NCBI RefSeq assembly: GCF_012926505.1
Contig: NZ_JABBNT010000001.1
Coordinates: forward strand, 1 to 64,000
Source of the DNA: Pacificispira spongiicola
GTDB lineage: Bacteria; Pseudomonadota; Alphaproteobacteria; UBA8366; Aestuariispiraceae
DNA length: 64,000 nucleotides
Direction: 5' to 3'
A program made the position numbers and the translations under genes. Below are positions 12,023 to 36,105 of the stretch, piece by piece (positions within the stretch are counted from its first letter, which is position 1; every line of letters begins with the position of its first letter). The notes below the pieces were generated by a model that saw nothing but the letters and a program-made list of their open reading frames with translations, had not been told where the DNA came from and ran no database searches.

Positions 12023-13678
12023 TTACGCACGGGCATCCGTCAGAATCATATCCGCCGCTTTTTCCGCGATCATGACGACAGGGGAATTCGTATTCCCAGA
12101 TGTAATCGTCGGCATGATCGACGCATCCGCAATGCGAAGGCCCGCTATGCCATAGACCTTCAGGGTCGGATCGACCACGGCGTCGGGATCGGAAGACGGC
12201 CCCATCTTAGCGGTGCCGACCGGATGAAAGATCGTCGTCGCGATGTCGCCTGCGGCCTTCGCCAACTGGTCGTCGCCGTCGATTTCCGGGCCGGGTTTGA
12301 ATTCGGTCGCCTTGAACCTCTGCAAGGCCGGGGCTTTCGCGATTTGGCGTGTCAGGCGGATCGCCGCCGCCGCGACCTGACGGTCCCCCACCGCTTGCAG
12401 GTAATTCGGACGGATCACCGGCTTGTCGAAGGGATTCGCCGACCGCATCGTAACGGTGCCCCGGCTTTCGGGACGCAAGTTGCAGACGGATGCCGTGAAG
12501 CCGGGGAAAGGATGCAGCGCCTCCCCCAATTTTTCCGTCGATAGAGGCTGGACATGGAATTGCAGATTCGGCGTTTCCCGAGCCGGATCGGATTTCACGA
12601 AACAGCCCAACTGGCTGGGCGCCATGCTCAACGGGCCGCTTTGGAACAGGGCGTATTCGATCCCCATCGCCGCACGGCGCAGCGGATTGTGGCTGATTTC
12701 GTTCAGGGTTCGAACCCCTTCGACCTTGAATGCCAGCCGGACTTGAAGGTGATCCTGCAAATTTTCGCCGACGCCAGGCATCTCATGCAGGACGTCGACG
12801 CCCCGGTCCTTAAGCAGGGCACCGGGTCCGATCCCGGATCGTTGCAGGATGACGGGCGACGCAACGGCCCCGGCGGCCAGCACGACCTCTCCCCGGCAGC
12901 GCGCTTCCGCGTCGCGGCCGTCGACGGTCAGTTTAACCCCCGTCACGCGACCGTTCTCTATCGTCAGCGTCTTGCAATGGGCCTTCGTGACCACTTTCAG
13001 GTTCGGACGCTTCCGGGCCGGTTTCAGGAAACCTTTCGCGGAGGACCAGCGAATTCCCCGCTTCTGATTGACCTGGAAGTAACCCACCCCTTCATTCGTG
13101 CCGGTATTGAAATCGTCCGTCGCCGGAATGCCCGATTCGATCGCGGCCTCGCGAAAGGCGTCCAGAATGTCCCAACGCAGCCGTTGATGTTCGACGCGCC
13201 AATTGCCGCCCGTTCCGTGGGCTTCCGACGGCCCGTCGACATGATCTTCCGACTTCTTGAAATACGGCAGGACGTCATCCCAGCCCCAACCCGGATTTCC
13301 AGCCTGCCGCCATCCGTCGTAATCGCGTGCCTGACCACGCATATAGATCATGCCGTTGATCGACGAACAGCCGCCCAGAACCTTGCCGCGGGGATAATCC
13401 AGAGCGCGCCCGTTCAGGCCCGGTTCCGATTCCGTTTTAAACAGCCAATCCGTCCTTGGGTTACCCATGGTAAACAGATACCCGACGGGAATATGGATCC
13501 ACGGATAGGTATCCTTGCCGCCCGCTTCCAGCAAAAGCACGGTATACTTGGTGTTTTCGCTCAGCCTATTGGCCAGCACACAACCTGCCGTTCCGGCGCC
13601 GATGACGATAAAATCGTATTCCCCAAGACTGGAAATGCCCAAATTCGACAAATTATGTCCCCCCAGGAAATGTTGCAT
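12023..13678 (-). CDS. GMC-family FAD-dependent dehydrogenase (choline/alcohol dehydrogenase-like)
   Basis: A 551-residue GMC oxidoreductase. The FAD dinucleotide motif is [19 protein letters not shown], preceded by about 20 extra residues. GMC signature 1 appears around [20 protein letters not shown], signature 2 around [16 protein letters not shown], and the C-terminal HPVGTAKMG holds the catalytic histidine, with a downstream N in TSGNTNSPV. Family members oxidise choline or long-chain alcohols to aldehydes. The extended N-terminus leaves the start uncertain: a TTG after GGGGGG in the first 15 codons is an alternative. Gene context (methylated-amine genes nearby) makes an amine alcohol possible. 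Confidence 0.9.
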
Positions 13679-13842
13679 TGATTTCCGGACATGTTAGCCT
13701 TGCTTTGTGATCACGGAAAGGTCGGCAGGCGTTCGGGTGAAACTGATTCAACCTTTCAAGAATGAATAACACCTGACAGCGTGCTCCGCTTGGCGTTACC
13801 TTCCGCTGGGCTTTTTACGGACAGGAACAGGGAGTTACCTAA

Positions 13843-15471
13843 ATGTCTCAGAAAATGGATGGAGAACTTCTCCATAAATTCGAACGCATGAAGCGCGCCC
13901 TCGCCAAAGGGGAACTGGACCGGCGCGGATTCATCGTTGCGGCACTCGGTGCCGGTGTCGCCGGAAGCTCCGTCTTCGGCCATGTTAAGAAGGTACAGGC
14001 CGCGACCCCGAAAAAGGGTGGTCGTTTCGTTCAGGCCCTGACCGGCGGCGGGTCGGGCGATACGCTGGATCCGGCGCAGATTCTCGATTCCTACATGATC
14101 AACGTCAGCTCCGGCATGCTGCGCAACAACCTGACGGAAATCGCGCCGGACGGTCAGTTGGTCGGCGAATTGGCGACCAGCTGGGAAGCCTCGCCGGACG
14201 CGATGACCTGGACGTTCAAAATCCGTCCGGGCGTCGAATTCCACAACGGCAAGACCTTGGAAGCGGCGGATGTCGTCGCCTCCCTGAACCATCACCGTGG
14301 TGAAAACAGCAAATCGGCCGCCTCCGGTATCGTGTCCAACATTTCCGACGTGAAAGCGGACGGCAAGGACACTGTCGTGGTCACGCTCAGCGGCGGCAGC
14401 GCCGACTTCCCGTTCCTGATGTCCGACTATCACCTGGGTATTTGCCCGGCGAAGGACGACGGTTCGATCGACTGGGAATCGGGCGTTGGTACGGGCGGTT
14501 ACGCGCTGACCAGCTTCGAGCCGGGCGTCCGCACGGAAGTGAAGCGCAACCCGAACTACTGGAAAGAAGGCCGCGCTTGGTTCGACGAAGTCGAATCGCT
14601 GTTCGTTGCCGACGCCAACGCGCGTAACACCGGTCTTCAGACGGGTGAGCTGCACTCCATCGCGAACCTCGACCTGAACACGGTCAGCCTGATGCGTCAG
14701 GTGCCGACGCTGAAGGTCTTCGAAACCTTCGGTAACAAGCATGCGACGCTGCCGATGATGTGCGACACGGCCCCGTTCGATAATCCGGACGTCCGTCTTG
14801 CCCTGAAATACGCCATCGACCGTAAGGAACTGGTCGAAAAGATCCTGCAGGGTCTGGGCGAAGTCGGTAACGACCATCCGATCGGCCCGGCGAACATTTA
14901 CCGCGCCACACAGGAAGAACTGCCACAGCGTCAGTTCGACCCGGAAAAGGCCAAGTTCCACCTGAAACAGGCGGGCCTGGACAGCCTCAGCGTCGATCTG
15001 CACCTGGCCGACACGGCCTTCGAAGGCGCGATCAACGCCGGCCAGCTCTATGCCGAAACGGCGAAGCAGTGCGGCATCAACATCAACGTCGTCAGCGAGC
15101 CGGATGATGGTTACTGGTCGAACGTCTGGTTGGCGAAGCCGTGGTGCGCGAGCTACTGGGGCGGCCGTCCGACGGAAGATTGGGTCTTCAGCCAGATTTA
15201 CGCCTCGGGCGCGGAATGGAACGAGTCGAAGTGGGACAACGCGCGGTTCAACGAACTGCTTGTCATGGCCCGCGCCGAACTCGACTCCACGAAACGTCGC
15301 GAGATGTATGTCGAAATGCAGACGATCTGCAACGAAGATTGCGGTTCGATCATTCCGATCTTCATGGCCTACACCCACGCCGTCAGCGCGAAAATCGGCC
15401 TGCCCGATCAAATCGCCAACAACTGGGAACTGGATGGTCACAAGAACGCCGAACGTTGGTGGTTCGAATAA
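13843..15471 (+). CDS. ABC transporter substrate-binding protein, family 5 (peptide/opine type), Tat-exported
   Basis: A 542-residue extracytoplasmic solute-binding protein of the DppA/OppA family. The N-terminus has a twin-arginine signal (DRRGFIVAALGAGVAGSSVF) about 27 residues in, then GGRFVQALTGGGSGDTLDPA begins the mature lobe. RPGVEFHNGKTLEAADVVAS and the lobe-II segment VRLALKYAIDRKELVEKIL are family hallmarks. No permease or ATPase gene lies beside it. Its codons use GGT and CGT far more than neighbours, suggesting high expression. A strong terminator follows. Ligand unknown; peptides, opines or betaine-like compounds are possible. Confidence 0.93.
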   Translation: MSQKMDGELLHKFERMKRALAKGELDRRGFIVAALGAGVAGSSVFGHVKKVQAATPKKGGRFVQALTGGGSGDTLDPAQILDSYMINVSSGMLRNNLTEIAPDGQLVGELATSWEASPDAMTWTFKIRPGVEFHNGKTLEAADVVASLNHHRGENSKSAASGIVSNISDVKADGKDTVVVTLSGGSADFPFLMSDYHLGICPAKDDGSIDWESGVGTGGYALTSFEPGVRTEVKRNPNYWKEGRAWFDEVESLFVADANARNTGLQTGELHSIANLDLNTVSLMRQVPTLKVFETFGNKHATLPMMCDTAPFDNPDVRLALKYAIDRKELVEKILQGLGEVGNDHPIGPANIYRATQEELPQRQFDPEKAKFHLKQAGLDSLSVDLHLADTAFEGAINAGQLYAETAKQCGININVVSEPDDGYWSNVWLAKPWCASYWGGRPTEDWVFSQIYASGAEWNESKWDNARFNELLVMARAELDSTKRREMYVEMQTICNEDCGSIIPIFMAYTHAVSAKIGLPDQIANNWELDGHKNAERWWFE

Positions 15472-15497: not shown

Positions 15498-15526
15498 CGG
15501 CCCGGTTTGACCGGGCCGTTCTTTTT
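15498..15526 (+). terminator. Rho-independent terminator after the binding-protein gene
   Basis: CGGCCCGG pairs with CCGGGCCG around a 5-base TTTGA loop, followed by TTCTTTTT. It stands 26 bases after the TAA of the substrate-binding protein, so that gene appears to be monocistronic. Confidence 0.92.
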
Positions 15527-15609
15527 ATGTAACACCCGCGCCTCGTGTCTTTTAAACTGGTCGTGCTTGGGGGCGGGGACCAGCGAATAACGCTTAGGAG
15601 CGTCCGTCA

Positions 15610-16071
15610 TTGGGCTACGCCATCCGCCACCTGCCGAAGTACAATCTCGTCTATTGCGTTCACTGGGGTATTTGCGATCCGAAGCAAATGCTGGCTGAAA
15701 TTCGGTCGCCGGGGTTTGAGCCCCGAGACACCTTTCGCGCGGATACACTGGTCCAAATAATGCCCAATGCGGACCTCAGCACGATCACGCCGGAATTCGC
15801 CGTGGAAATCTGGAAAGCGGATCAAGAAACGTTCTTTGAGCCGTTTGGCGAAAAGCCGTCTTCCAAACTGGCCTTCGTCTGCCCGGAAAACCTGGACCGT
15901 ATCATCATGCGTATGATCGTTACGCTGGGCCATGCTTCCACCGAAGGGTCGGAAGAACCCGACACCTTCACCGATCTCACGGATGCACTGTCCTGGTTGG
16001 GCAACGACCGGATCGCCGCGGAAGCCGAATTGACCGCCATCGCCACGGCCCTGGTCGCGAAACCGGAATAG
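15610..16071 (+). CDS. Conserved-type hypothetical protein with a TTG start
   Basis: A 153-residue soluble protein, not recognised. The start is TTG at 15610, supported by AGGAG nine bases upstream and by the lack of an earlier ATG. The sequence opens GYAIRHLPKYNLVYCVHWG, then has mixed alpha/beta character and ends in an alanine-rich helix. The pattern of short strands and helices could suit a STAS- or SpoIIAA-like fold, but no diagnostic motif is seen. It lies between two terminators and is therefore probably an independent unit. Base composition and codon use match the neighbours. Confidence 0.7.
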   Translation: MGYAIRHLPKYNLVYCVHWGICDPKQMLAEIRSPGFEPRDTFRADTLVQIMPNADLSTITPEFAVEIWKADQETFFEPFGEKPSSKLAFVCPENLDRIIMRMIVTLGHASTEGSEEPDTFTDLTDALSWLGNDRIAAEAELTAIATALVAKPE

Positions 16072-16089
16072 CCCCGCACAAAAAAGCAA

Positions 16090-16123
16090 AACGCCCGGCC
16101 GAAATGATCGGCCGGGCGTTTTT
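16090..16123. terminator. Bidirectional intrinsic terminator
   Basis: AACGCCCGGCCGA (16090-16102) pairs perfectly with 16108-16120 around an AATGA loop. T runs follow on the plus strand and A runs precede it, so it can end both the rightward hypothetical gene (stop 16071) and the leftward methyltransferase gene (stop 16153). Confidence 0.93.
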
Positions 16124-16152
16124 CCTATACGTTCACGCGTTTTTGCGCGACG

Positions 16153-17739
16153 TCAGTATGCGGCGTCGGGCATCGATGACTTCCGCTGTTCGATGAACGC
16201 CAGCAAGGCCTCGTCGACCGCCGGATCGATGGCCGGCGCTTCGTATTCGCGCAGCAGTTTCTTCCAATAGGCATTCGCGCGCTGGTTCATATCCAGGCTG
16301 CCTTCGGCTTCCCACTGTTCGTAGGAATTGTTGTCCGCCAGCGGGGACCGATAGAAGGCGGTTTCGAAGTTCCGCTGGGTATGCGCGCAGCCCAGATAAT
16401 GCATGCCCGGACCGACTTCGCGGATCGCGTCCATCGCCTGACCGTTTTCCGACAGGTCCGGCCCGTTCAGCAGACGGCCCAGCATGGAGGCCTGATCGGC
16501 ATCCATGACAAACTTCTCATAGCCCATGGACAGGCCGCCTTCCAGCCAGCCGGCCGTGTGCAGCATGAAGTTCACGCCGCCCAGCGCCGCCGTCTGCAAC
16601 GTGTTCGCAGATTCGTAGGCTGCCTGTGCATCGGCGATCTTGGACGCCGTGAACCCGCCGCCCGACCGGAAGGGCACACCCAGTCGCCGCGCCAACTGCG
16701 CCGCGCCGTACAGGACCAGCGACGGTTCCGGCGTGCCGAAAGTCGGTGCGCCGGACTGCATGGAAATGGACGATGCGAAGGTACCGAAGACGACCGGCGC
16801 GCCGGGGCGGCAAACCTGGGTCAACGCCATGCCCGCCAGCGCTTCGGCATAAAGCTGCGTCAGGGTGCCAATAATCGTCACCGGGCTCATCGCGCCGGAC
16901 AGGATGAAGGGCGAGATCACCGTTGCCTGATTATTGCGCGCATACACTTTCAACGCGCCCAGCATGGTGTCGTCCCAAACCATGGGAGAGTTCGCGTTGA
17001 TCAGGTTGATGACGACGCAATTCTGATCGACGAAATCGGCGCCGAACAGGATCTTGCACATATCGACCGTGTCCTGCGCGCGCTCCGGCGCCGTGACGGA
17101 GCCCATGAACGGCTTATCGGACCAGCGCATATGGCTGTAGACCATGTCCAGGTGACGCTTGTTCACCGGGACGTCCACCGGCTCACACAGCGTTCCGCCG
17201 GAATGGTGCAGACCCGTCGACATATAGGCCAGCTTCACGAAATTGCGGAAATCCTCGATCGTGCCGTAGCGGCGGCCCTTGTCGAGGTCGCGCACGAAGG
17301 GAGGGCCATAGGCCGGAACCAGGACCGTATTGCCCTCGCCCATCTTCACGGTACGCTCCGGATTGCGGGCATGCTGGGTGATCAGCGACGGCGCCGTGTC
17401 TTGGATCAGCTTTTTGCAGAGGCCTTTCGGGAAGTGAACGCGTTCGCCGCGAACGTCGCAGCCTTGGTCGCGCCACATCTGCAGCACTTCCTCATCGCCG
17501 CGGAAATCGAGGCCGATCTCCTCCAGCACCGTGTCGGCGTTGCGTTCGATCAGATCCAGGGTTTCTTCGTTCAGAAGATCGAAATAGCCGATCTGCCGAG
17601 TGATATAAGCGGGCGCCGTCTTACCCGCGCTGGCCCGTGCCGCCTGCCGGGCCGCCCGACCGCCGCCGCGCGCCGCGCGGCGTCCGCCGCCCGTGCTTCC
17701 CGATTCCGCCTGTTCCGACGCGACCATTTCCTCACTCAT
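16153..17739 (-). CDS. Trimethylamine methyltransferase (MttB) superfamily protein, non-pyrrolysine
   Basis: A 528-residue TIM-barrel methyltransferase of the MttB superfamily. After a low-complexity Gly/Arg/Ala N-terminus (residues 15-40), the family region starts ITRQIGYFDLLNEETLDLIE and continues through LVPAYGPPFVRDLDKGRR, GGTLCEPVDVP and PEPSLVLYGAAQLARRLGVPFR. No in-frame amber codon interrupts the gene, so it is a non-Pyl homologue like glycine betaine:corrinoid methyltransferase MtgB. The ATG at 17739 follows AAAGGGA. Such enzymes move a methyl group from a quaternary amine to a corrinoid protein. No corrinoid protein gene is seen nearby, which is odd. A PAS protein gene lies upstream on the same strand. 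Confidence 0.9.
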   Translation of the reverse strand: MSEEMVASEQAESGSTGGGRRAARGGGRAARQAARASAGKTAPAYITRQIGYFDLLNEETLDLIERNADTVLEEIGLDFRGDEEVLQMWRDQGCDVRGERVHFPKGLCKKLIQDTAPSLITQHARNPERTVKMGEGNTVLVPAYGPPFVRDLDKGRRYGTIEDFRNFVKLAYMSTGLHHSGGTLCEPVDVPVNKRHLDMVYSHMRWSDKPFMGSVTAPERAQDTVDMCKILFGADFVDQNCVVINLINANSPMVWDDTMLGALKVYARNNQATVISPFILSGAMSPVTIIGTLTQLYAEALAGMALTQVCRPGAPVVFGTFASSISMQSGAPTFGTPEPSLVLYGAAQLARRLGVPFRSGGGFTASKIADAQAAYESANTLQTAALGGVNFMLHTAGWLEGGLSMGYEKFVMDADQASMLGRLLNGPDLSENGQAMDAIREVGPGMHYLGCAHTQRNFETAFYRSPLADNNSYEQWEAEGSLDMNQRANAYWKKLLREYEAPAIDPAVDEALLAFIEQRKSSMPDAAY

Positions 17740-17850
17740 TGTCGTCCCTTTCAGATCTGTCCCGGCGTTTTGCGAACACCGACCGATCGACCATCCCAAA
17801 TAACAAGAAACAGACCTCGACGGACTCTTCATTGGAATACCGTCGCTGCC

Positions 17851-17879
17851 AGCGCCCTCTTTATCGCCCGAAGGGCGCT
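17851..17879 (-). promoter_or_regulatory. Leader with two competing hairpins upstream of the MttB-like gene
   Basis: The strand 17873-17879 can pair either with AGCGCCC at 17851-17857 or with CGCCC at 17865-17869 (GAA loop). The two pairings exclude each other, as in attenuators or riboswitches. It lies 112-140 bases upstream of the chosen ATG. A longer in-frame reading of the methyltransferase would place it inside coding sequence, so the regulatory reading is tentative. Confidence 0.3.
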
Positions 17880-17948
17880 TCAGGACGTTCGTATTCGCGA
17901 CTTCCTTTTCGTCAAGCCGCGTCATCGCCGCATTCGTTTCGACACGAG

Positions 17949-18536
17949 TCAGGGCGTTAATGGGCGAACACCGTCCGTCGGATCACGCAGCCGATCCGGA
18001 TAATTGATCGCGACAATCCGCGCGACCGCACCGGTAGCATCGACCAGCGGCGCCAGCACGCGCGACCATGTGGCGATCTTGAAATGGACCGGGGGATGGT
18101 GCTCCGTGAACAACAGATCTCGCCGCGATACGACCGCACCATAACAAGCCATCATGAAATCGCGCGTCACCGGCGGGATATGGGTCTCGCTCAACCTCAT
18201 TCCGGTCAAGTCGAAGCCCGATACCTGTGAAATGCCGGTGCCGTAAACCCGATACTGGAAATCCGCGCCGCCGTCCAACACGTCCAGATACATCAGATAT
18301 TTCATGGGTTTCCGGAAATCGACGATATCAAAGTCATCAACGGACGGCAGCCCCCCATCCACCCTGGGCATGTCGCGCCAAGACCTGACGAAGCTGGTGA
18401 GCAATGGGAAGGGAAGGCTGTCCGGATCGGGATGCCAGACGATCTGCGGCGGAAAGGGCGTATCCATCAGGAAACGCTGCCGCATCCAATCCCGATCCGC
18501 GTCGATAATTCGACGGACATCCTCGGTGAGTCCCAT
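17949..18536 (-). CDS. PAS-domain protein (PAS_5-like)
   Basis: From the ATG at 18536 the protein is about 195 residues. The core LPSVDDFDIVDFRKPMKYLMYLDVLDGGADFQYRVYGTGISQVSGFDLTG resembles the short PAS family common in Rhodospirillales, in which a PAS fold stands alone without an output domain. VLAPLVDATGAVARIVAINYP is the final PAS strand pair. A longer start at 18656 is open, but its extra 40 residues look non-conserved. It is transcribed toward the MttB-like gene, about 210 bases away, and is divergent from the dehydrogenase gene at 18802. A sensory role for this block is inferred. Confidence 0.72.
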   Translation of the reverse strand: MGLTEDVRRIIDADRDWMRQRFLMDTPFPPQIVWHPDPDSLPFPLLTSFVRSWRDMPRVDGGLPSVDDFDIVDFRKPMKYLMYLDVLDGGADFQYRVYGTGISQVSGFDLTGMRLSETHIPPVTRDFMMACYGAVVSRRDLLFTEHHPPVHFKIATWSRVLAPLVDATGAVARIVAINYPDRLRDPTDGVRPLTP

Positions 18537-18801
18537 ATCCGAAACCTTCGCGATCTCTGGCGGCGTTCCCACGTTATGCGGGTATAGTGATACAAGTTTC
18601 GATATCTGTCGAATGGTGCGCGTTCCCCTTTGCTTTCCCCGGTGCTTCCGCGACACCCGCTTGTGACGTAGGATTTACCGTCGGCGTCGCATTTTCGAAA
18701 GCCGGGCGGTCGCGTTCTGATCATTCTGCGACCGGTTGGCGCCAGGGTCACTCGCGGCGGTCCAGTCTTACGCAAATTCTTCTAGTACGGAGACGGTATT
18801 A

Positions 18802-21366
18802 ATGGCGCAGTTCCATAAAAAGGCAGATGTCGTCATCATCGGCCTGGGCGGCATCGTCGGCGCGTCGGTGGTCCACCACCTGATCGAACGCGGCTGGGAA
18901 AACATCATCGGCATCGACAAGTCGGGCATTCCGACGGATATCGGCTCCACCGGTCATGCTTCGGATTTCTGCTTCAACACGATGCATGATCCGATCACGA
19001 TGTTCACGACGAAGTATTCCATCGACTTCTTCGAATCCCGTGGCCGCTATGAACGGATCGGCGGGATCGAGGTTGCGCGCAAGGACGACGACGAGCGTAT
19101 GCGCGAACTGGAACGCCGCGTCAGCTCCGGCCGTGCCTTCGGCAACCGCGTGCGCATGATCTCCGCCAAGGAAGCGAAGGAAATGATGCCGCTTCTGGAA
19201 GAAGACGTGATCCAGGGCGCGCTTTACGACCCGGATGCGGGCCTTGTCGTGCCGCGGTCCCAGACGGTCGCGGGCGAATTGGTCCAGGAAGCCGTGGATA
19301 GCGGCAAGCTGGAAACCATCCCGAACACGCCCTGCACCGGCCTGGATATCGAAGACGGCAAGATCAAGGGCGTGCACACGACGCGCGGCTATATCGAAAC
19401 TTCCAAGGTCGTCGTTTGTGCCGGTCTCTGGGGCCGTCTGATCGCCGAAATGGCGGGCGAAGACCTGCCGGTCATGCCGGTCGACCACCCGTTGACCTTC
19501 TTCGGGCCGTATAACGAATTCGAAGGCACGGGCAAGGAAATCGGCTATCCGCTACTGCGCGACCAGGGCAACTCCGCCTATCTGCGCGACACGGGCGCCG
19601 CCGGAACGACCGAAGGCGGCCAAATCGAATGGGGCTATTACGAAGAAAAGGAACCGCGTCTGGTTCACCCGCGCGATATCCTGGAAAAGGAACAAGCCCG
19701 CCTGTCCCCGTCCCAGCGCGATCTGGACATGGAACAGATCATGGAGCCGCTGGAACGCGCCCTTGAACTGACGCCGATCCTGGGCGAGTTGGGTTACAAC
19801 GAGAAACATTCCTTCAACGGTCTGCTGCAAGTCACCGCCGACGGCGGCCCGTCCATTGGGGAATCCCCGACTGTCCGTGGTCTGTGGTACGGCGTGTCGG
19901 TCTGGGTCAAGGACGGCCCCGGCACGGGTAAGCTGATCGCCGACTGGATGACGGACGGCCGCACCCATATCGACCATCACGCCATCGATTACGCGCGCTT
20001 CTATCCGATCCAGAAGTCGGAGAAATACATCTACGACCGCTGCTTCGAATCCGCGTTCAAGATTTACAACCCGCCGGTCCATAACCGCGAACCCTATTCC
20101 AAGGGTCGCAACCTGCGCACCGCCCCGTACTATCTGCGGGAAAAGGAACTGGGGGCGCATTTCATGGAAATCGCCGGTTGGGAACGCGCCCACGGTTACG
20201 CCTGCAACGATCACCTGTTGGAAAAATACGCCGACCGCGTGCCGGTGCGCGAAAACGAATGGGACAACCGCCATTTCTGGCGCGTCTCCAACGCCGAACA
20301 TCTGGAGCTTTCCGAGAATGTCGGCATGGTGAACCTGTCTCACTTCGCCATCTATGACATCACGGGCCGCGATGCCGCGACGCTGATGGAATATGTTTCC
20401 TCCTCCAAGGTCGCGGGCGATACCGCCGTGGGCAAGGGCGTCTACACCAACTTCCTGGACGATACCGGGGGGGTGATGGCGGATTTGACCGTCCTGCGTC
20501 TGGGCGAAAACCGCTTCCAGATGATCGACGGCGGCGATGCCGGGAACCGCGACGCCACCTATCTGCGCCGCATGGCCCAGGACAAGGAATGGGACGTCTT
20601 CGTCGAAGACCGCACCGACCATTACGGCTGCATCGGCGTCTGGGGACCGAATGCCCGCGAGACGCTGAAGCAATTGGCCGACGATCCGGCCGGGCTCGAC
20701 CTTGACAACTTCGCCTTCGGCGCTTGCAAGGACTTCACCCTGCGCGGCGTTCCGGTGAAGGGTTTCCGCATCTCCTATGTCGGGGAACAGGGTTGGGAAC
20801 TGCACTTCTCCATGTCGTATGGCCTGGCGCTCTGGGACATGTTCCGCGAGGTCGGCATCACCCCGATCGGCGTTGAGACCTATGCCAACAGCCGCCGTCT
20901 GGAAAAGAGCCTGCGTCTGCAGAACGCGGACCTGCTGACCGAATATAACCTGCTTGAGGCAGGCCTGGCCCGTCCGAAGGTGAAAGCCGCCGACTTTCGC
21001 GGCAAGGACGCCAACATCGCCCAGCGCGACCTGCCGCATCAGGCGGCCATGCTGTGCACGATGACGGTGACCGACAACATCGACAAGGACGGCGTCGCCC
21101 GCTTCATGATGGGCAGCTGCCCGATCGTCGATCCGAAAACCAACGAGGTCCTGATCGACAGTAAGGGCCGCCGGTCCTACACGACCTCGCTGGCCTACGG
21201 CCCGTCGGTCGGCAAGAACATCGCCATGGGCTACCTGCCCCACGACTATTGCCAGGAAGGCCTGGAACTGGAGATCGAATATTTCGACCAGAAATTCCCA
21301 GTCAAAGTCGAAGGCATCGGCATGAAATCCCTCTACGACCCGACCAATGCGCGCATGAAGTCTTAA
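18802..21366 (+). CDS. FAD/GcvT-domain dehydrogenase (dimethylglycine/sarcosine dehydrogenase-like)
   Basis: An 854-residue protein starting at ATG 18802 after a GGAG site. The N-terminal half is a DAO-type FAD domain (GLGGIVG at residues 14-20). GSTGHASD carries H52 at the place where dimethylglycine dehydrogenase binds FAD covalently. The C-terminal half is GcvT-like (VNLSHFAIYDITGRDAATLME, GVMADLTVLRL, GIGVWGPN-like CIGVWGPNARETL, and SYVGEQGWELHF), which binds tetrahydrofolate and accepts the released one-carbon unit. Oxidative N-demethylation of a methylated glycine or related amine is the likely reaction. It is followed by a terminator and is divergent from the PAS/MttB genes. Confidence 0.9.
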   Translation: MAQFHKKADVVIIGLGGIVGASVVHHLIERGWENIIGIDKSGIPTDIGSTGHASDFCFNTMHDPITMFTTKYSIDFFESRGRYERIGGIEVARKDDDERMRELERRVSSGRAFGNRVRMISAKEAKEMMPLLEEDVIQGALYDPDAGLVVPRSQTVAGELVQEAVDSGKLETIPNTPCTGLDIEDGKIKGVHTTRGYIETSKVVVCAGLWGRLIAEMAGEDLPVMPVDHPLTFFGPYNEFEGTGKEIGYPLLRDQGNSAYLRDTGAAGTTEGGQIEWGYYEEKEPRLVHPRDILEKEQARLSPSQRDLDMEQIMEPLERALELTPILGELGYNEKHSFNGLLQVTADGGPSIGESPTVRGLWYGVSVWVKDGPGTGKLIADWMTDGRTHIDHHAIDYARFYPIQKSEKYIYDRCFESAFKIYNPPVHNREPYSKGRNLRTAPYYLREKELGAHFMEIAGWERAHGYACNDHLLEKYADRVPVRENEWDNRHFWRVSNAEHLELSENVGMVNLSHFAIYDITGRDAATLMEYVSSSKVAGDTAVGKGVYTNFLDDTGGVMADLTVLRLGENRFQMIDGGDAGNRDATYLRRMAQDKEWDVFVEDRTDHYGCIGVWGPNARETLKQLADDPAGLDLDNFAFGACKDFTLRGVPVKGFRISYVGEQGWELHFSMSYGLALWDMFREVGITPIGVETYANSRRLEKSLRLQNADLLTEYNLLEAGLARPKVKAADFRGKDANIAQRDLPHQAAMLCTMTVTDNIDKDGVARFMMGSCPIVDPKTNEVLIDSKGRRSYTTSLAYGPSVGKNIAMGYLPHDYCQEGLELEIEYFDQKFPVKVEGIGMKSLYDPTNARMKS

Positions 21367-21392
21367 GCCGCGACGTCATCGGCAGAGACGAA

Positions 21393-21431
21393 AGCCGCCG
21401 GGGCCAAACAGGTCTCGGCGGCTATTTTATT
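21393..21431 (+). terminator. Rho-independent terminator after the dehydrogenase gene
   Basis: A 13-bp stem (21393-21405 with 21411-21423, two G-U wobbles, AAACA loop) is followed by ATTTTATT. It lies 26 bases after the stop of the FAD/GcvT gene and ends that transcript before the convergent SDR gene. Confidence 0.85.
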
Positions 21432-21476
21432 CGCGCCCAGGGTCGCCGCTACAGGATAGCGGGCGCAACGCGCATA

Positions 21477-22259
21477 TCACGCCGTCGGCACAGTGCCGCC
21501 GTCGATCACGAAATCGGACCCGGTGATTGCGCCCGCCCTCGGCGATGCCAGAAACGCGATCAAGTCCGCAACTTCCGACGGCTTTGCCGGCCGTCCCAGA
21601 GGAATACCGCCCAATGCGTCCATAATGATCCGCCGACCTCCCTCGTTGTCCGTTCCTGCTTCCTTGGCGATACGCTCGACAAGATGTTCCGCAGCTTCCG
21701 TCTCAATCCATCCAGGCGACACGCGCAGCACTCGGATGCCTTTCGGTGCGACTTCTTTGGATAGACTTTTGCTGTAGGTCGAAAGGGCAGCCTTCGCAGC
21801 GGCATAGGCCGTCGTCGACTCCGGCAACGGCAGCAGATGCTGGATGGAGGCAACATGGACAATGACCCCCGTCCCTTGCCCGATCATTAGCGGTAGGAGG
21901 GCGCGATCGAGCCGGACTGCGGGCATCAGGTTCAGGTTAATTTCCCGCATCCAGACGTCATCGTCCAAAGTGGCAAATCCGCCAGCCGGGGCTTGGGACC
22001 CGCCCAAGACATGAACGATTATATCGATGGTGCTCAAATGCTCCCTGACCGCCTCAGCCACCGCATCGCATCCATCTGGCGAGGTCAAATCAGCGGCAAC
22101 GTAGTGCACGTTATCCAGAAATACGTCCGGGACGGTTCGGGCCGTCGTTACAACCCTAGCCCCCGCTTGGGCCAGAATATTCACAACAGCCGCACCAAGG
22201 CCTTTTGTCCCGCCTGTCACCAACGCAAGACGCCCTTCGAGTTCTAGAGAAAAGCTCAT
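21477..22259 (-). CDS. Short-chain dehydrogenase/reductase
   Basis: A 260-residue classical SDR. The cofactor motif is [14 protein letters not shown] (TGxxxGxG form), the active-site serine lies in [10 protein letters not shown], and the YxxxK catalytic pair is in [17 protein letters not shown]. The C-terminal [12 protein letters not shown] and [13 protein letters not shown] complete the fold. Cofactor preference is not clear: there is an Arg after the second strand (TTARTVP), which often favours NADPH. Its ATG overlaps the SnoaL gene stop by 4 bases, and the pair is divergent from an HxlR gene. The substrate is unknown; small carbonyl or quinone compounds are plausible. Confidence 0.92.
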
Positions 22260-22582
22260 AGCGCGATCTCCAGGGAATCGATTTCGCCGTCGGCCAGGAC
22301 AAATCGGTATTTAAGGTCCACGGGGCTGCCCGGGAAGTTCCCGGATACATGGCCGGTCACGATGACGGCCTCACCGTCGGTTCGTACCGAAAAAGGTTCA
22401 ACGGTATATGTGTACTGGCTTGTAGCCTCCTCACGCCATTTCCGAATGGCATCGCGCCCACGATAGGTCTGCTTCTCGTCGGTAACGCGTCCAGTTTCCG
22501 TAAAGCACTGAGCCACCGCTGCGCCGTCCGATTTATCAGCGGCAAAGTATCGGGAGATAGGATCAGGTAATGTGGTCTGCAT
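22256..22582 (-). CDS. SnoaL-like / NTF2-fold protein
   Basis: A 108-residue protein starting at ATG 22582 after GGAAGGATACGTC. It has the NTF2-like pattern [46 protein letters not shown], in which the acid and aromatic residues line the pocket. Such small proteins act as isomerases, cyclases or ligand-binding partners. It is the first gene of a two-gene operon, coupled by a 4-base overlap to the SDR. The reaction cannot be assigned. Confidence 0.85.
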
Positions 22583-23952: not shown

Positions 23953-24072
23953 ACGTCGCCATGTTCATCCGAACATTCATTCGAATGTCATGAAATCGAA
24001 GCGGTCGTGTCATGGCCGGACTGTATTCCTGCTGCCCTCAAGATATGCGGATCGGGTTTTGGGCCGGGGGCG

Positions 24073-24855
24073 ATGGTCGGGGATATTACGGAGCGGCAGG
24101 CGCAGATTGCGGAGCGGGTGCGGGAGCGCGGGTTTCAGACCGTGGCCGACCTGGCGACGCATTTTGACGTCACGACCCAGACGATCCGGCGCGATATCTC
24201 GGAACTGGCGGAACTGGGCGTTCTGAAACGGCGGCATGGCGGGGTCGAATTGCCGGTTCCGACGGCCAATCTGAGCTTCGGTCAACGGCGTATCCTGAAT
24301 TTCGACGCGAAACAGCGTATCGCGCGGACCGTGGCGCGGCATGTCCCGAACGGGGCCAGCGTTGCCGTCAGCATCGGGACGACGCCGGAATTGGTGATCC
24401 ATGCCCTGTCGGCGCATCTTCATTTGAAGGTCTATACCAACAACATCATGGCGGCCCTGACCGCCTGCGCCATTCCGACGGCGGAGGTCACGATCCCCGG
24501 CGGGCCGCTGCGCTCTGCCGAACGCGACGTGGTCGGCAGCGCGGTGGAGGATTTCTTCGCCCGCTACAAGGTCGATATCGGCATCTACGGCGTCGGCGGG
24601 GTCGATGCCACGGGCGAGTTGATGGATTTCCATGAAGAGGAAGTGCAGGTGCGCGAGGCGATCCGGCGCAACAGCCGCCGATCCTTCCTGATCCTCGACG
24701 CCAGCAAATTCGGCCGCGCCGGTCATGTGCGCGGCGGCCTGATCGACGAAGCGGATGTAATTTTTTGCGACGGCACCCCGCCGCCCGGCATCGCGGCGAT
24801 GCTGCGCAAGGCGGGGCGGCAGGTCATCTATTGCGGTGAAGAGGAAGCGGCATGA
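24073..24855 (+). CDS. DeoR-family transcriptional repressor
   Basis: A 260-residue DeoR/GlpR-type regulator from ATG 24073. The HTH is GFQTVADLATHFDVTTQTIRRDISELAELGVLKRRHGG, the family signature. The effector domain keeps VSIGTTPELVIHAL, TNNIMAA, GVGGVD and LILDASKFGRAGHVR, which bind sugar phosphates in relatives such as GlpR. Its stop overlaps the ABC ATPase ATG by 4 bases, so it is encoded in the importer operon and very likely represses it. The effector is not known. Confidence 0.92.
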   Translation: MVGDITERQAQIAERVRERGFQTVADLATHFDVTTQTIRRDISELAELGVLKRRHGGVELPVPTANLSFGQRRILNFDAKQRIARTVARHVPNGASVAVSIGTTPELVIHALSAHLHLKVYTNNIMAALTACAIPTAEVTIPGGPLRSAERDVVGSAVEDFFARYKVDIGIYGVGGVDATGELMDFHEEEVQVREAIRRNSRRSFLILDASKFGRAGHVRGGLIDEADVIFCDGTPPPGIAAMLRKAGRQVIYCGEEEAA

Positions 24856-26003
24856 GCGGGGCCAACAAGACCGGGGTCACTATCGATATCCGGCACCTCA
24901 GCAAGGTCTGGCGAGACAAGGCGGGGAAAGAAACAGCGGCGGTCGACGGCGTATCCTTCACGGCGGAGGCCGGGAAGTTCACGGTCCTGCTGGGCCCGTC
25001 CGGCTGCGGCAAGTCGACGACGCTGCGCCTGATCGCGGGGCTGGAGGCGGCCAGCGACGGCGGTATCCTGATCGACGGCAAGGACATGACGCGCCGCCCG
25101 CCGACCGATCGCGGCATCGCCATGGTCTTCCAATCCTACGCCCTGTTCCCGCATCTGAATGTGGAGGAAAACATCCTGTTCGGCCTGAAGGTCCGCAAGG
25201 TGCCGCCGGTCGAACGCGCCGTGCGCCTGCGCCGGGTCGCGGAACTGTTGGGATTGCAGGAGCTGCTGGACCGCAAGCCCAACCAACTGTCCGGCGGGCA
25301 GCAGCAGCGCGTCGCTTTGGGCCGCGCGATCATCGCGGAAAAGCCGATCTGCCTGATGGACGAGCCGTTGTCCAACCTGGACGCCAAGCTGCGCCATGAA
25401 ATGCGTGTGGAGCTGCGCGCGCTGCAGCAGAAGCTGGGCCTGACCATGGTCTATGTCACCCACGATCAGGCGGAAGCGATCAGCATGGCCGACCGTATCG
25501 TGGTGATGAATGGCGGACGCATCGAACAGGTCGGCACCCCGACCGATATCTATGACCGGCCCGCCAGCGCCTTCACTGCCCGCTTTATCGGCACGCCGCC
25601 GATGAACCTGATCGAGCTGAAGCGCGGCCTGCGCGGCTGGACGATACCGGGCACGGATGCGCCCCTACCGCTGGCCATTGATCCCGCGCAGGGCGACACC
25701 GCGCTGCTGGGCGTCCGGCCGGAGGATATCCGCCGCGACCCGTCGGGCATCGAGGCTGTCGTGGAAGCCGTGGAATATCTGGGCGCGGACAATCTGGTCG
25801 ATTGCCGATTGGGGGAGGCCGTGCTGACCGCCCGCCTGCCCCGCCATGCCGGGATGAAACCCGGCGACCGGTTGCGCCTCGGCTGGGGCGACGAGGCCAT
25901 GCATCTGTTCAATTCCGTCAACGGCGAGCGTCTTCCCCTAACGGGACAGGGCTCCGCGCCGACACCGAAACATGACGCCGCCAAGCAGATGGCGTCGTCA
26001 TAG
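24852..26003 (+). CDS. ABC transporter ATP-binding protein (MalK/UgpC family)
   Basis: A 383-residue carbohydrate-type ABC ATPase. Walker A is GPSGCGKST, the Q-loop is in VFQSYALFPHL, the signature is LSGGQQQR, Walker B is ICLMDEP and the H-loop is YVTHD. The C-terminal regulatory TOBE/OB domain spans about residue 240 onward (TRFIGTPPMNLIEL-like). This fits MalK-type importers of sugars or sugar phosphates with two permease genes downstream. It is translationally coupled to the DeoR regulator. A hairpin follows its stop. Confidence 0.95.
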   Translation: MSGANKTGVTIDIRHLSKVWRDKAGKETAAVDGVSFTAEAGKFTVLLGPSGCGKSTTLRLIAGLEAASDGGILIDGKDMTRRPPTDRGIAMVFQSYALFPHLNVEENILFGLKVRKVPPVERAVRLRRVAELLGLQELLDRKPNQLSGGQQQRVALGRAIIAEKPICLMDEPLSNLDAKLRHEMRVELRALQQKLGLTMVYVTHDQAEAISMADRIVVMNGGRIEQVGTPTDIYDRPASAFTARFIGTPPMNLIELKRGLRGWTIPGTDAPLPLAIDPAQGDTALLGVRPEDIRRDPSGIEAVVEAVEYLGADNLVDCRLGEAVLTARLPRHAGMKPGDRLRLGWGDEAMHLFNSVNGERLPLTGQGSAPTPKHDAAKQMASS

Positions 26004-26006
26004 AAA

Positions 26007-26044
26007 GGACCGTTCGGCCCTCCGCTAAAAGTTCCGAACGGTCC
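26007..26044 (+). promoter_or_regulatory. Intercistronic hairpin between ATPase and binding-protein genes
   Basis: GGACCGTTCGG (26007-26017) pairs exactly with 26034-26044 around a 16-base loop. There is no T run after it, so it more probably blocks RNA decay or sets relative expression than terminates. The binding-protein ATG is 55 bases further on, after AAAGGAG. Confidence 0.6.
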
Positions 26045-26099
26045 AATGCCTTGGTTAGCAAGTGATCTCGTAAACCGAAGACAAAAGGAGCATAAACCA

Positions 26100-27386
26100 A
26101 TGTCTTTCATGCGAAAAGTTGGGGCCGGTCTCGGCGCCGCCGCGCTGTCGGGCCTGATGGCCAGCACCGCCTTTGCCGTCGACCTTCAATTCTACTTCCC
26201 GGTCGCCGTCGGCGGTAAGGCCGCGACGACGATCCAGGAACTGACCGACGAATATGCGGCAGCTCATCCGGACGTCAAAATCGACGCCGTCTATGCCGGC
26301 AGCTATCAGGACACGATCACCAAGACCCTGACCGCGGCGCGCGGCGGCACCCCGCCGCAATTGGCCGTGATCCTGTCGGTCGACATGTTCACCCTGATCG
26401 ACGAAGACGTCATCATCCCCTTCGACGACGTTGCGACGACGGATGAAGACAAGAAGTGGCTGACCTCCTTCTATCCGGGCTTCATGGACAATTCCATGAC
26501 CGACGGGAAGACCTACGGTATCCCCTTCCAGCGCTCGACCCCGGTCATGTACTGGAACAAGGAAGCCTTCAAGGAAGCCGGTCTGGACCCGGAACTCCCG
26601 CCCGCGACCTGGGATGAAATGGTCGAATTCGGCAAGAAGCTGACCAAGAAGGACGCCAACGGCACGGTTACCCAGTGGGGCCTGCGCATCCCGTCCTCCG
26701 GCTTCCCCTACTGGCTGTTTCAGGGCCTGACCACGGAAAACGACGTGATCCTGGCCAACGACGCCGGCAACAAGACCAACTTCGACGATCCGAAGGTTGT
26801 CGAAGCCTTGAACTTCATGGTCGACCTGTCCAAGAAGCACGGCATCATGCAGCCGGGCATCATCGAATGGGGTGCCACGCCGAAGGCCTTCTTCGAGCGC
26901 CAGGCCGCCATTATGTGGACGACCACGGGTAACCTGACCAACGTCCGCGAAAACGCGCCGTTCGATTTCGGCGTCGCCATGCTGCCGGCCCACAAGCGTC
27001 GCGGCGCCCCGACCGGCGGCGGCAACTTCTACATCTTCAAGGACTCGACGGACGAACAGAAGGCTGCGTCCCTCGACTTCATCAAGTGGATCACGGCCCC
27101 GGAACAGGCCGCCCGCTGGACCATCGCGACCGGCTATGTCGCGCCGAGCCCGGCCGCTTGGGAAACCCAGGCGATGATCGACTACGTGAAGGGCTTCCCG
27201 CAGGCGCTGGTCGCCCGCGAGCAGCTTGAATTCGCGGTGGCCGAACTGGCGACCTATCAGAACCAGCGCGTTACCGGCATCCTGAACGATGCTTTGGAAG
27301 CCGCGATCACCGGCACGATGTCGGCGGAAGAAGCCCTGAAGAACGCCCAGGCCGAAGCCGACAAGGTTCTGGCGGATTATCGCTAA
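26100..27386 (+). CDS. ABC transporter substrate-binding protein (sugar / glycerol-phosphate type, family 1)
   Basis: A 428-residue protein starting at ATG 26100 after AAGGAG. The signal peptide covers about residues 1-23 (MSFMRKVGAGLGAAALSGLM, cleaved after AFA). VDLQFYFPVAVGGKAATTIQELTDEY resembles UgpB-like proteins, and YGIPFQRSTPVMYWNKEAF is the ligand-cleft region of family 1 solute-binding proteins. It lacks a lipobox, so it is probably a free periplasmic protein. The operon carries two permeases and an ATPase. Ligand unknown; oligosaccharide, polyol or glycerophosphodiester are typical. Confidence 0.93.
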   Translation: MSFMRKVGAGLGAAALSGLMASTAFAVDLQFYFPVAVGGKAATTIQELTDEYAAAHPDVKIDAVYAGSYQDTITKTLTAARGGTPPQLAVILSVDMFTLIDEDVIIPFDDVATTDEDKKWLTSFYPGFMDNSMTDGKTYGIPFQRSTPVMYWNKEAFKEAGLDPELPPATWDEMVEFGKKLTKKDANGTVTQWGLRIPSSGFPYWLFQGLTTENDVILANDAGNKTNFDDPKVVEALNFMVDLSKKHGIMQPGIIEWGATPKAFFERQAAIMWTTTGNLTNVRENAPFDFGVAMLPAHKRRGAPTGGGNFYIFKDSTDEQKAASLDFIKWITAPEQAARWTIATGYVAPSPAAWETQAMIDYVKGFPQALVAREQLEFAVAELATYQNQRVTGILNDALEAAITGTMSAEEALKNAQAEADKVLADYR

Positions 27387-27406
27387 GTCTTAGCTACTCC
27401 CAACTT

Positions 27407-27433
27407 CCGGCGGCGCCTTACCCGCGCCGCCGG
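27407..27433 (+). promoter_or_regulatory. GC-rich hairpin between binding-protein and permease genes
   Basis: CCGGCGGCGC (27407-27416) pairs exactly with 27424-27433 around a CTTACCC loop. It lies 20 bases after the binding-protein stop. Such hairpins commonly hold the binding-protein transcript at a higher level than the permease part. Partial termination is likely; GGGTTTTCG follows. Confidence 0.7.
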
Positions 27434-27462
27434 GACGCGGGTTTTCGATAAGGAATTCGGAC

Positions 27463-28338
27463 ATGATGGGACGGCGCGAATGGATCCACGGCTGGCTGCT
27501 CTTAAGCCCGGCACTGATCCTGCTTTTCGCCTTCACCCACTATCCGGCGGTCGTGACCTTCTGGGCCAGTTTCTTTTCGACGCCGCGCGGCAAGCGATCG
27601 GCGAAATTCGTCGGCCTGGAAAATTACCAAACCCTGCTGACGGACGATAAGTTCTGGCAGGTCCTGTACAACAACCTGCTCTATGCCGGGATCACCATTC
27701 CGGTTTCCGTGGCGCTGGCGCTGATCATGGCGCTGTTCGTGAACAGCAAGCTGCATGGCCGCGGCTTCGTGCGCATGACCTATTTCGCACCGACCGTGCT
27801 GCCGCTGATCGCCGTCGCCAATATCTGGCTTTTCTTCTACACGCCGGGCTTCGGCTTCATCGATCAGGTCCGCGGCCTCTGGGGCGCGGGCGAGGCGAAC
27901 TGGCTCGGCAATCCCGACACGGTCCTGGGCGCGCTCATGGTCGTCGCCGTCTGGAAGGAAGCAGGCTTCTTCATGATCTTCTATCTCGCCGCCCTTCAGA
28001 CGATCCCGCCCAGCCTGCGTGAGGCCGCCGCCATCGAAGGCAGCAGCCGATGGACCTTTTTCCGGCGCGTGACATTCCCGCTGCTGATGCCGACGACGCT
28101 ATTCGTGTCGGTGAACGCGGTCATCAATTCCTTCCGTCTGGTCGACCATATCTTCGTGATGACGGAAGGCGGGCCGGACAATGCCAGCTCCCTGCTGCTC
28201 TATTACATCTATGAGGCCGGGTTTAAATTCTGGGATACGGCGCATGCGGCGACCGCCACCATCGCCCTGCTGGTCCTGCTGTCCGTGCTCGCCATCGGGC
28301 AGTTCTTCCTGGTCGATCGAAAGGTGCATTACCGATGA
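27463..28338 (+). CDS. ABC transporter permease (UgpA/MalF-like)
   Basis: A 291-residue inner-membrane protein with about six helices (first: WLLLSPALILLFAFTHYPAV). The EAA-loop for the ATPase contact reads EAAAIEGSSRWTFFRRVTFPLL near residue 190. Size and sequence fit the UgpA-type half of a sugar importer. An AAGGA site precedes the ATG. Its stop overlaps the next permease by 4 bases. Confidence 0.95.
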   Translation: MMGRREWIHGWLLLSPALILLFAFTHYPAVVTFWASFFSTPRGKRSAKFVGLENYQTLLTDDKFWQVLYNNLLYAGITIPVSVALALIMALFVNSKLHGRGFVRMTYFAPTVLPLIAVANIWLFFYTPGFGFIDQVRGLWGAGEANWLGNPDTVLGALMVVAVWKEAGFFMIFYLAALQTIPPSLREAAAIEGSSRWTFFRRVTFPLLMPTTLFVSVNAVINSFRLVDHIFVMTEGGPDNASSLLLYYIYEAGFKFWDTAHAATATIALLVLLSVLAIGQFFLVDRKVHYR

Positions 28339-29177
28339 GCGTGGACACGATGGAAATCGCCGTCGATACCAGCCGTTACGACAGGATTCTGAACACGATC
28401 GGGGCCTGGGCCCTCGGCCTGTTGTGGTTCCTGCCTCTGATCTACGCGGTTTGGACCGCGTTCCATCCCGGCGCCTATGCCACACGCTTCGAACCCTTCG
28501 CGCCGTTGACGCTGCAGAACTTCGTCAATGCCTGGAACGCCGCACCCTTCGCGCATTATTTCGTCAACACGGTGATGCTGGTGACGATGGTCACGCTCAG
28601 CCAATTCGTGCTGTGCACCCTCGCCGCCTATGCCTTCGCGCGGTTCGAGTTTCCCGGCAAGACGCTGCTGTTCACGCTGGTGCTGCTGCAATTGCTGGTC
28701 ATGCCGGAAATGCTGATCGTCGAAAACTATCAGACCATGCGCGTCCTGGGCCTGATCGATACGATCGCCGCCATCGCCTTGCCCTATGTCGCGTCGGGCT
28801 TCGGCATCTTCCTGCTGCGCCAGACCTTCATGACCGTCCCAAAGGAGTTGGAGGAAGCCGCCCGCATCGAAGGGGCCGGAACGCTCGGCATCTTGTGGAA
28901 GGTCTATGTTCCGCTCGCCAAACCGACCTACCTCGCCTACGGCTTGGTGTCCGTCAGTTACCATTGGAACAATTTCCTATGGCCGCTGATCGTAACGAAT
29001 TCCGTCGAAACACGACCTGTCACGGTGGGTCTGTCGGTCTTTTCCTCCGTCGATCAGGGGATCGACTGGTCGATCATCACGGCGGCGACGCTGATGACCT
29101 CAGGCCCGCTGCTCATCGCGTTCCTGCTGTTCCAACGCCAATTCGTGCAGAGCTTCATGCGCGCCGGGATCAAGTGA
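28335..29177 (+). CDS. ABC transporter permease (UgpE/MalG-like)
   Basis: A 280-residue inner-membrane permease with six predicted helices. The EAA-loop is EAARIEGAGTLGILWKVYVPLAKP. It is the last gene of the importer operon, and pairs with the preceding permease. The C-terminal LFQRQFVQSFMRAGIK is typical of MalG-like subunits. The convergent GntR gene ends 4 bases after it. Confidence 0.95.
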   Translation: MSVDTMEIAVDTSRYDRILNTIGAWALGLLWFLPLIYAVWTAFHPGAYATRFEPFAPLTLQNFVNAWNAAPFAHYFVNTVMLVTMVTLSQFVLCTLAAYAFARFEFPGKTLLFTLVLLQLLVMPEMLIVENYQTMRVLGLIDTIAAIALPYVASGFGIFLLRQTFMTVPKELEEAARIEGAGTLGILWKVYVPLAKPTYLAYGLVSVSYHWNNFLWPLIVTNSVETRPVTVGLSVFSSVDQGIDWSIITAATLMTSGPLLIAFLLFQRQFVQSFMRAGIK

Positions 29178-33352: not shown

Positions 33353-33393
33353 ATGATACGATATATTGAACTAATTTAAAAAAAGTGTATCAT
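33353..33393. promoter_or_regulatory. paa promoter with an inverted repeat, candidate operator
   Basis: ATGATAC (33353-33359) and GTATCAT (33387-33393) are exact inverted arms 27 bases apart. Between and overlapping them lie TTGAAC (33366-33371) and TATCAT (33388-33393), a plausible -35/-10 pair with a 16-base spacer. The AT-rich stretch is 43-83 bases before paaA. A TetR-type PaaR or a PaaX regulator is a likely user; neither gene is in the window. Confidence 0.5.
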
Positions 33394-33435
33394 GTTAGTC
33401 AGAAAGCAGAACAACCCGCTTTAGGGAGAAATGGG

Positions 33436-34410: not shown

Positions 34411-34462
34411 CAAGCCGCGCTAACAAGCCGCGAATACCAAATACGCTTAGGAAGGAAACCGC

Positions 34463-34756
34463 ATGTCCACGAATGCCAAGGAATGGCCGCTCTGGGAAGT
34501 CTTCGTCCGCAGCCGTCAGGGCCTGAGCCATAAGCATGCCGGGTCCCTGCGTGCCGTGGATGCCGAAATGGCGATCCAGAACGCCCGCGACGTCTATACC
34601 CGCCGCCGCGAAGGCGAGAGCGTCTGGGTCGTATTGGCCAGCGATATCCATGCCTCCCAGCCGGAGGAACGCGGCGCGTTCTTCGACCCGGCGGACGACA
34701 AGATTTTCCGGCATCCTACCTTCTATACGGTGCCGGACGGCGTGGAGAATATGTAG
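34463..34756 (+). CDS. paaB: 1,2-phenylacetyl-CoA epoxidase, subunit B
   Basis: A 97-residue protein with the family opening EWPLWEVFVRSRQGLSHKHAGSLRAVDAEMAIQNARDVYTRRREG. PaaB is a small accessory subunit that stabilises the PaaAC complex. Preceded by AGGAAGGAA. It ends 3 bases before paaC. Confidence 0.96.
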   Translation: MSTNAKEWPLWEVFVRSRQGLSHKHAGSLRAVDAEMAIQNARDVYTRRREGESVWVVLASDIHASQPEERGAFFDPADDKIFRHPTFYTVPDGVENM

Positions 34757-34759
34757 GCC

Positions 34760-35551: not shown

Positions 35552-35555
35552 TGTC

Positions 35556-36089: not shown

Positions 36090-36105
36090 TCTCGGGAGGA
36101 TCAAC

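Follow-up and report, generated by a model that had tools for sequence, protein, structure and literature searches.

Three genes at positions 16153-21366 of a 64,000-nucleotide stretch of the Pacificispira spongiicola genome (hereafter the window; contig NZ_JABBNT010000001.1, positions 1 to 64,000) encode an MttB-superfamily methyltransferase without pyrrolysine, a free-standing PAS-fold protein and an FAD/GcvT protein. Judged from sequence and gene context, the block would start the breakdown of glycine betaine, a widespread protectant against salt, with two successive steps carried out by an MtgB-type methyltransferase and a dimethylglycine dehydrogenase, with a shared MtgC-type corrinoid protein encoded at a distance, a reading to which we assign a probability of about 0.78.

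In the pathway that we propose, the MttB protein (MtgB) would move one methyl group from glycine betaine onto the cob(I)alamin of the cell's single MtgC-type protein, from which MtgD would hand the methyl to tetrahydrofolate or MtgE would use it for methionine, while a RamA-like protein would re-reduce the corrinoid cofactor. The FAD/GcvT protein would oxidize the resulting dimethylglycine, passing the one-carbon unit to tetrahydrofolate and leaving sarcosine. We infer both substrates and the order of the steps; the two successive demethylations of one quaternary amine put forward in an earlier, sequence-only reading of this DNA (the original prediction) are supported by gene context, and their simplest form is glycine betaine to dimethylglycine to sarcosine.

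Gene organization

The features of the block are as follows.

16153..17739, minus strand: MttB-superfamily methyltransferase without pyrrolysine, orthologue of the Sinorhizobium meliloti MtgB-type gene, 528 aa
17949..18536, minus strand: free-standing PAS-fold protein, 195 aa from the inferred start ATG 18536; the open reading frame is open to 18656
18537..18801, no strand: divergent intergenic region, defined by gene layout
18802..21366, plus strand: FAD/GcvT protein, probable tetrahydrofolate-dependent dimethylglycine dehydrogenase, 854 aa
16088..16122, minus strand: terminator-like hairpin 3' of MttB, 15 pairs and a T tail
21393..21423, plus strand: terminator-like hairpin 3' of FAD/GcvT, 13 pairs and a T tail

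All three genes claimed for the block are there, with a PF06253 protein, a PAS-fold protein and the FAD/GcvT domains each found. Their description as a packed block holds insofar as the genes are adjacent; however, FAD/GcvT is transcribed away from PAS and MttB, so a single operon of the three genes on opposite strands is ruled out and the block is a divergent pair. Terminator-like hairpins number 11 between 15500 and 22500 (6.8 expected in shuffles), and the two longest follow MttB and FAD/GcvT, one closing each end of the block, which bears out the claim that both outer genes end at terminators. The intergenic region 18537..18801 is the expected site of promoters; a sigma-70-like scan of 15500-22500 returned one site against 2.5 expected, and none inside the divergent region.

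The methyltransferase

The MttB protein matches Pfam PF06253 with 761.6 bits and has no internal stop. Its likely start is ATG 17739 (MSEEM...), which lines up with the Sinorhizobium start MSDVT..., and not the start of the open reading frame at 17925. It was correctly described as free of an amber codon, as there is no in-frame stop and Phe363 stands where 7xcl has its pyrrolysine in the alignment. Compared with solved structures, the protein scored 797.7 bits against 4yyc, deposited as a putative trimethylamine methyltransferase, which is closer than 9yce, deposited as "Glycine betaine methyltransferase" (430.3 bits), and 118 bits against the pyrrolysine MttB 7xcl. By eye, from its first residues, 4yyc seems to be the S. 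meliloti pSymB MttB, which is 70.1% identical to that of the window and whose gene lies beside mtgC.

Four further MttB paralogues are encoded in the genome (G000:C18:58642-60150, C1:1094169-1095677, C1:546496-547992 and C12:380766-382256), which has one MtgC-type protein. These paralogues scored 331.7, 297.7, 294.2 and 198.1 bits against 9yce and at most 340.5 bits against 4yyc, and the window MttB is the top scorer against 9yce among the five. In a tree of 18 rows, it clusters with the orthologues of S. meliloti, Paracoccus, Azoarcus and related genomes, apart from its own paralogues, although the fork of the 14-row clade is drawn open (82/95), with support limited by long branches. Two other family assignments were rejected, namely the pyrrolysine trimethylamine methyltransferase (TIGR02369; no amber codon, and 255.1 bits against a cut-off of 525) and the trimethylamine N-oxide demethylase (NF053776; 115.7 bits against a cut-off of 1100). 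The window MttB is a putative MtgB-type glycine betaine:corrinoid methyltransferase, with glycine betaine as its presumed substrate.

Methyl-transfer partners elsewhere in the genome

The original prediction found it odd that no corrinoid-protein gene lay nearby and called for a genome-wide search for MtgC-like genes. None is close to the block, but the gene is present elsewhere: profile searches for the partner families, run on the whole genome (G000; 4.20 Mb in 19 contigs, 97.85% complete), found one MtgC-type corrinoid protein on contig C14 (G000:C14:493.8-494.4 kb), 80% identical to S. meliloti MtgC. As the prediction had allowed, such a distant gene makes the arrangement an ordinary one as far as gene presence goes. 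PF02607 has one match in the genome and PF02310 four, and only this protein carries both; the other three PF02310 frames, of 639, 718 and 728 aa, are all without PF02607 and are presumably mutase-like and radical-SAM proteins. Directly behind mtgC lies a DUF1638-like gene (57% to S. meliloti), and 16-20 kb past it are a RamA-like reactivase (59%) and MtgD (66%), the latter scoring 367.9 bits against its NCBIfam model, above the cut-off of 259. PF14574 (RamA-like) is matched once in the genome and PF00809 twice. An MtgE/bmt orthologue (57%) is encoded some 970 kb away from the block on contig C1; its 452.8 bits exceed the cut-off of 338 set for the NCBIfam betaine-homocysteine methyltransferase model. 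The searches turned up no fused MetH in the genome, since PF00809, PF02310 and PF02574 matches never share a frame.

That no corrinoid gene lies near the block is the sole point in favor of a methyl acceptor other than a corrinoid protein, as the original prediction had suggested. The MtgC, DUF1638-like, RamA-like and MtgD genes on C14 and the MtgE gene on C1 argue against it, as do MttB orthologues that adjoin mtgC in other genomes, and we reject this reading, whose probability is close to negligible.

The scattered layout matches that of the marine bacterium Ruegeria pomeroyi DSS-3, whose dispersed MtgBCDE genes, with MtgC accompanied by DUF1638, MtgD, MtgE and RamA, are described, with genetic evidence, in PMC12478193. 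According to that study, R. pomeroyi mutants in mtgC and mtgD depend on methionine and fail to use glycine betaine, and such bacteria often carry several PF06253 genes, up to seven. Compared by this description, the two genomes also share several PF06253 paralogues and the lack of any fused MetH found; unlike in R. pomeroyi DSS-3 as described there, the window MttB adjoins an FAD/GcvT gene and a PAS gene. The S. meliloti pSymB cluster of MttB, MtgC, MtgD and bmt is similar in its proteins (MttB 70% and MtgC 80% identical), but its genes stand in a single cluster, with no FAD/GcvT annotated within the 21 kb examined.

The FAD/GcvT protein

The FAD/GcvT protein has the architecture DAO, FAO_M, GCV_T and GCV_T_C and starts at ATG 18802, whose M1 is invariant across 16 aligned sequences. 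It matches over its full length both 1pj5 (362.6 bits) and 4pab, the Arthrobacter dimethylglycine oxidase and the mammalian dimethylglycine dehydrogenase. In the oxidase, the key residues are the flavin-linking His of GST-x-HA, the His225/Tyr259 pair and Asp552; H52, H229, Y260 and D561 of the window protein align with the key residues, all four being invariant in the 16 aligned sequences. D561, kept as in 1pj5 and 4pab, corresponds to the Asp that is Ala in 3gsi. Remote in sequence from these two enzymes, the window protein probably passes electrons to electron-transfer flavoprotein (ETF) rather than to oxygen, as inferred from ETF genes that adjoin some orthologues. The nearest relatives of the gene are in Hwanghaeella-type bacteria, and a literature search found nothing linking Hwanghaeella with betaine.

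Co-occurrence and gene neighborhoods

The original prediction asked whether the two families co-occur across alphaproteobacteria, and they do. In a class survey of 385 alphaproteobacterial genomes (match threshold E ≤1e-100), MttB was present in 78 and FAD/GcvT in 17; three FAD/GcvT matches of 33-34% identity, all from one genus, were set aside, leaving 14 genomes of 10 genera. MttB is present in 12 of these 14 (8 of the 10 genera), each at no less than 65% identity, and is absent from G267 and G355. By Fisher's test, the association has p = 1.5e-7 when genomes are counted and p = 4.5e-5 when genera are, values that ignore kinship and count the window's own genome. The two genes lie 0.2-3.0 kb apart in 8 of the 14 genomes (4 of the 10 genera).

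Neighborhoods connect both genes with the partner set. MttB orthologues adjoin mtgC, DUF1638, MTHFR, mtgD and ASKHA (RamA-like) genes in Paracoccus methylovorus, S. meliloti pSymB and P. aminovorans, the S. meliloti cluster additionally holding bmt and a glycine betaine/proline transporter gene; nine plasmid records carry MttB at 60% identity or above, and four of these regions were read. The Azoarcus orthologue adjoins betA, betB, folD and a choline-binding transporter protein, with no mtgC within the 21 kb shown. In a Sneathiellales metagenome-assembled genome (MAG; G001), the 19 kb shown carry SoxA (truncated at the edge), SoxG, MttB, FAD/GcvT, a GlxA-like regulator, mtgC, a DUF1638-like gene, two MTHFR-type genes, mtgD and a RamA-like gene. 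Similarly, Halomonas urumqiensis (L141) has a row of RamA-like, mtgD, MTHFR, DUF1638-like, mtgC, folD, MttB (68%) and FAD/GcvT (71%) genes, and in Pelagibius litoralis (L119) and a Rhodospirillales MAG (L120), MttB and FAD/GcvT are divergent as in the window and are followed by an MtgE homologue (52%).

FAD/GcvT orthologues also occur in other company. That of Thalassospira marina (66.6%) stands with a Rieske/reductase pair, which we name from context as of the GbcAB kind, a BCCT transporter, ETF subunits, PurU, GlyA and SoxBDAG, and G267 has the Thalassospira-type set around FAD/GcvT plus FdhA, with BCCT and GlyA not in view. The Celeribacter orthologue is accompanied by ETF, PurU, FolD and formaldehyde dehydrogenase. 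Two dimethylglycine-making routes, MtgB and the GbcAB-like pair, share this dehydrogenase, which suggests that dimethylglycine is its substrate. In G105 (L110:5177-10639), which belongs to the window's genus, MttB is present without an FAD/GcvT orthologue; a remote FAD/GcvT protein (28%) occupies the same divergent place beyond the PAS gene, so that the partner seems to have been exchanged.

Two side observations concern these loci. L113 (CP051228.1), labelled a Mesoflavibacter MAG, carries the block (93-94% identical) together with the GMC oxidoreductase and solute-binding genes that flank it in the window, and with these genes the label seems mistaken. In a Comamonadaceae MAG (L135:7094-12565, noted together with L092:11560-12264), the FAD/GcvT gene comes after genes for a Hydantoinase_A protein and for a protein of 240 aa that matches no Pfam family, a shared partner about 40% like the "ferredoxin" beside the S. 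meliloti MttB.

Weighing the substrates

A named-genome scan listed the best 80 FAD/GcvT loci, 36 of them with no less than 5 kb on both sides, and overlaps the class survey (L117 = G001, L118 = G096). Among these best 80, MtgC was found in 6 and MtgD in 8 of the 36 well-covered loci, and MttB, MtgC or MtgD in 14 of the 36, with rows read by eye. The expectation that GbcAB commonly replaces MttB beside FAD/GcvT was not borne out; L129, L178 and L187 have GbcA matches of 34-35%, and the two scanned are Rieske oxygenases. Plasmid records with FAD/GcvT are mostly Rhizobium plasmids (126 of 153). The FAD/GcvT family thus extends beyond the pair, as expected for a second step after several first steps, so the MttB neighbor alone does not settle which substrate the FAD/GcvT protein uses.

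Several observations weigh against the glycine betaine pathway. MttB at 40% identity or more occurs near FAD/GcvT in only 8 of the 36 well-covered loci (8 of the best 80 listed), one of them at 44%, and GbcA or GbcB at that level in 0 of these 80; two Rhizobium plasmid regions that were read have FAD/GcvT without MttB or evident betaine genes, and 19 kb around the G355 gene hold neither MttB nor GbcAB. The FAD/GcvT protein is remote from characterized enzymes, and the genome encodes six other FAD/GcvT proteins of dimethylglycine-dehydrogenase size, 28-31% identical to that of the window. Two partners fall below the cut-offs of their best NCBIfam models, MtgC with 212.8 bits against 370 for MtgC_2 and the RamA-like protein with 377.6 against 800. 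Finally, where pyrrolysine would stand, the MttB proteins of the window (Phe363) and G379 have Phe and the remaining 12 clade rows have Leu; the MttB of L113 likewise has Phe.

It is very unlikely that MttB and FAD/GcvT are neighbors acting on unrelated substrates, a reading suggested by their divergent transcription and by the many FAD/GcvT loci, most of the best 80 listed, that show no MttB in view. Against it, the two genes are adjacent in 4 and co-occur in 8 of the 10 genera. Both also cluster with mtgC, mtgD and a RamA-like gene in G001 and in L141, and G105 has a remote FAD/GcvT protein at the same divergent position.

A closer alternative, though still an unlikely one, keeps the two-step mechanism and the shared MtgC and changes the compound: the substrate would be another trimethylammonium compound (e.g. 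proline betaine, carnitine, gamma-butyrobetaine or choline), and the FAD/GcvT enzyme would act on its dimethyl product. The genome's five MttB paralogues fit this idea, as does the Phe-Thr at MttB positions 363-364, where the other clade members examined have Leu-Cys or Leu-Asn. Moreover, Eubacterium MttB relatives act on several betaines via one corrinoid protein, as stated in PMC12478193. However, the window MttB is the paralogue nearest the solved glycine betaine methyltransferase, and in both Thalassospira and G267 the FAD/GcvT orthologue adjoins a GbcAB-like pair and genes for sarcosine oxidase, and we favor glycine betaine.

The PAS-fold protein

The PAS protein scores 17.7 bits against PAS_5, under the cut-off of 22. 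Its structure, predicted from three sequences, gave a best model with a mean predicted local distance difference test score (pLDDT) of 76 and a predicted template modeling score of 0.77, the five models ranging from 76 down to 35 and two of them below 40 in mean pLDDT. PAS/LOV domains head the solved structures that match the model, the best at E 1.3e-5 and 8 in all at E ≤0.001, with low TM-scores (0.34-0.44 when normalized by query length), so the earlier label of a free-standing PAS protein is very probably right despite the sub-cut-off Pfam score.

PAS relatives lie between MttB and FAD/GcvT in G379 (47%), L113 (43%) and L114 (38%), and beside MttB in G105 (33%). In G379, L113 and G105, MttB is 90-94% identical whereas the PAS proteins are only 33-47% identical, which makes the PAS protein a fast-changing accessory. 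Relatives turned up in close relatives only, no wider search having been made, and the protein would be a lineage-restricted accessory and perhaps a sensor, the sensory role being a guess. A PAS-containing protein near the S. meliloti MttB was ruled out as its counterpart, as it combines PAS_6 with HTH_22 and belongs to another family. It is also conceivable, if quite unlikely, that the MtgB of this lineage, with its Phe-Thr at positions 363-364, has changed its substrate and that the divergent pair is under the control of the PAS-fold protein, which would respond either to the new betaine or to the redox status of the shared corrinoid pool.

Other genes of the window

One further gene near the block may be relevant to it.

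12023..13678, minus strand: GMC oxidoreductase resembling choline dehydrogenase by profile scores, kept beside the block in two close relatives

It scores 589.2 bits against the PRK02106 choline dehydrogenase model, below the cut-off of 605, and 497.5 bits against BetA, below 732.1; it is 81% identical in L095 and L113 and is a possible upstream step. Together with a family 5 solute-binding protein, this choline-dehydrogenase-like gene (12023-15471) stays beside the block in G379 and L113. Farther away, the row at 24007-29177 encodes a DeoR regulator, an ABC ATPase with a TOBE domain, a solute-binding protein and two permeases and seems to make up an entire ABC transporter, and 33385-37170 includes a PaaA/PaaC-type gene, the stretch 36136-37170 being about 29% like a GbcB-like reductase.

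Significance

The block is most probably a member of the already known route of MtgB and dimethylglycine dehydrogenase, and the apparent anomaly of a methyltransferase without a corrinoid partner is removed. It adds neighborhood support for a modular connection of glycine betaine breakdown to methionine synthesis that was described recently. The occurrence of one dimethylglycine-dehydrogenase subfamily after MtgB or, in at least two genomes, after a GbcAB-like pair offers a lead for annotating betaine users.

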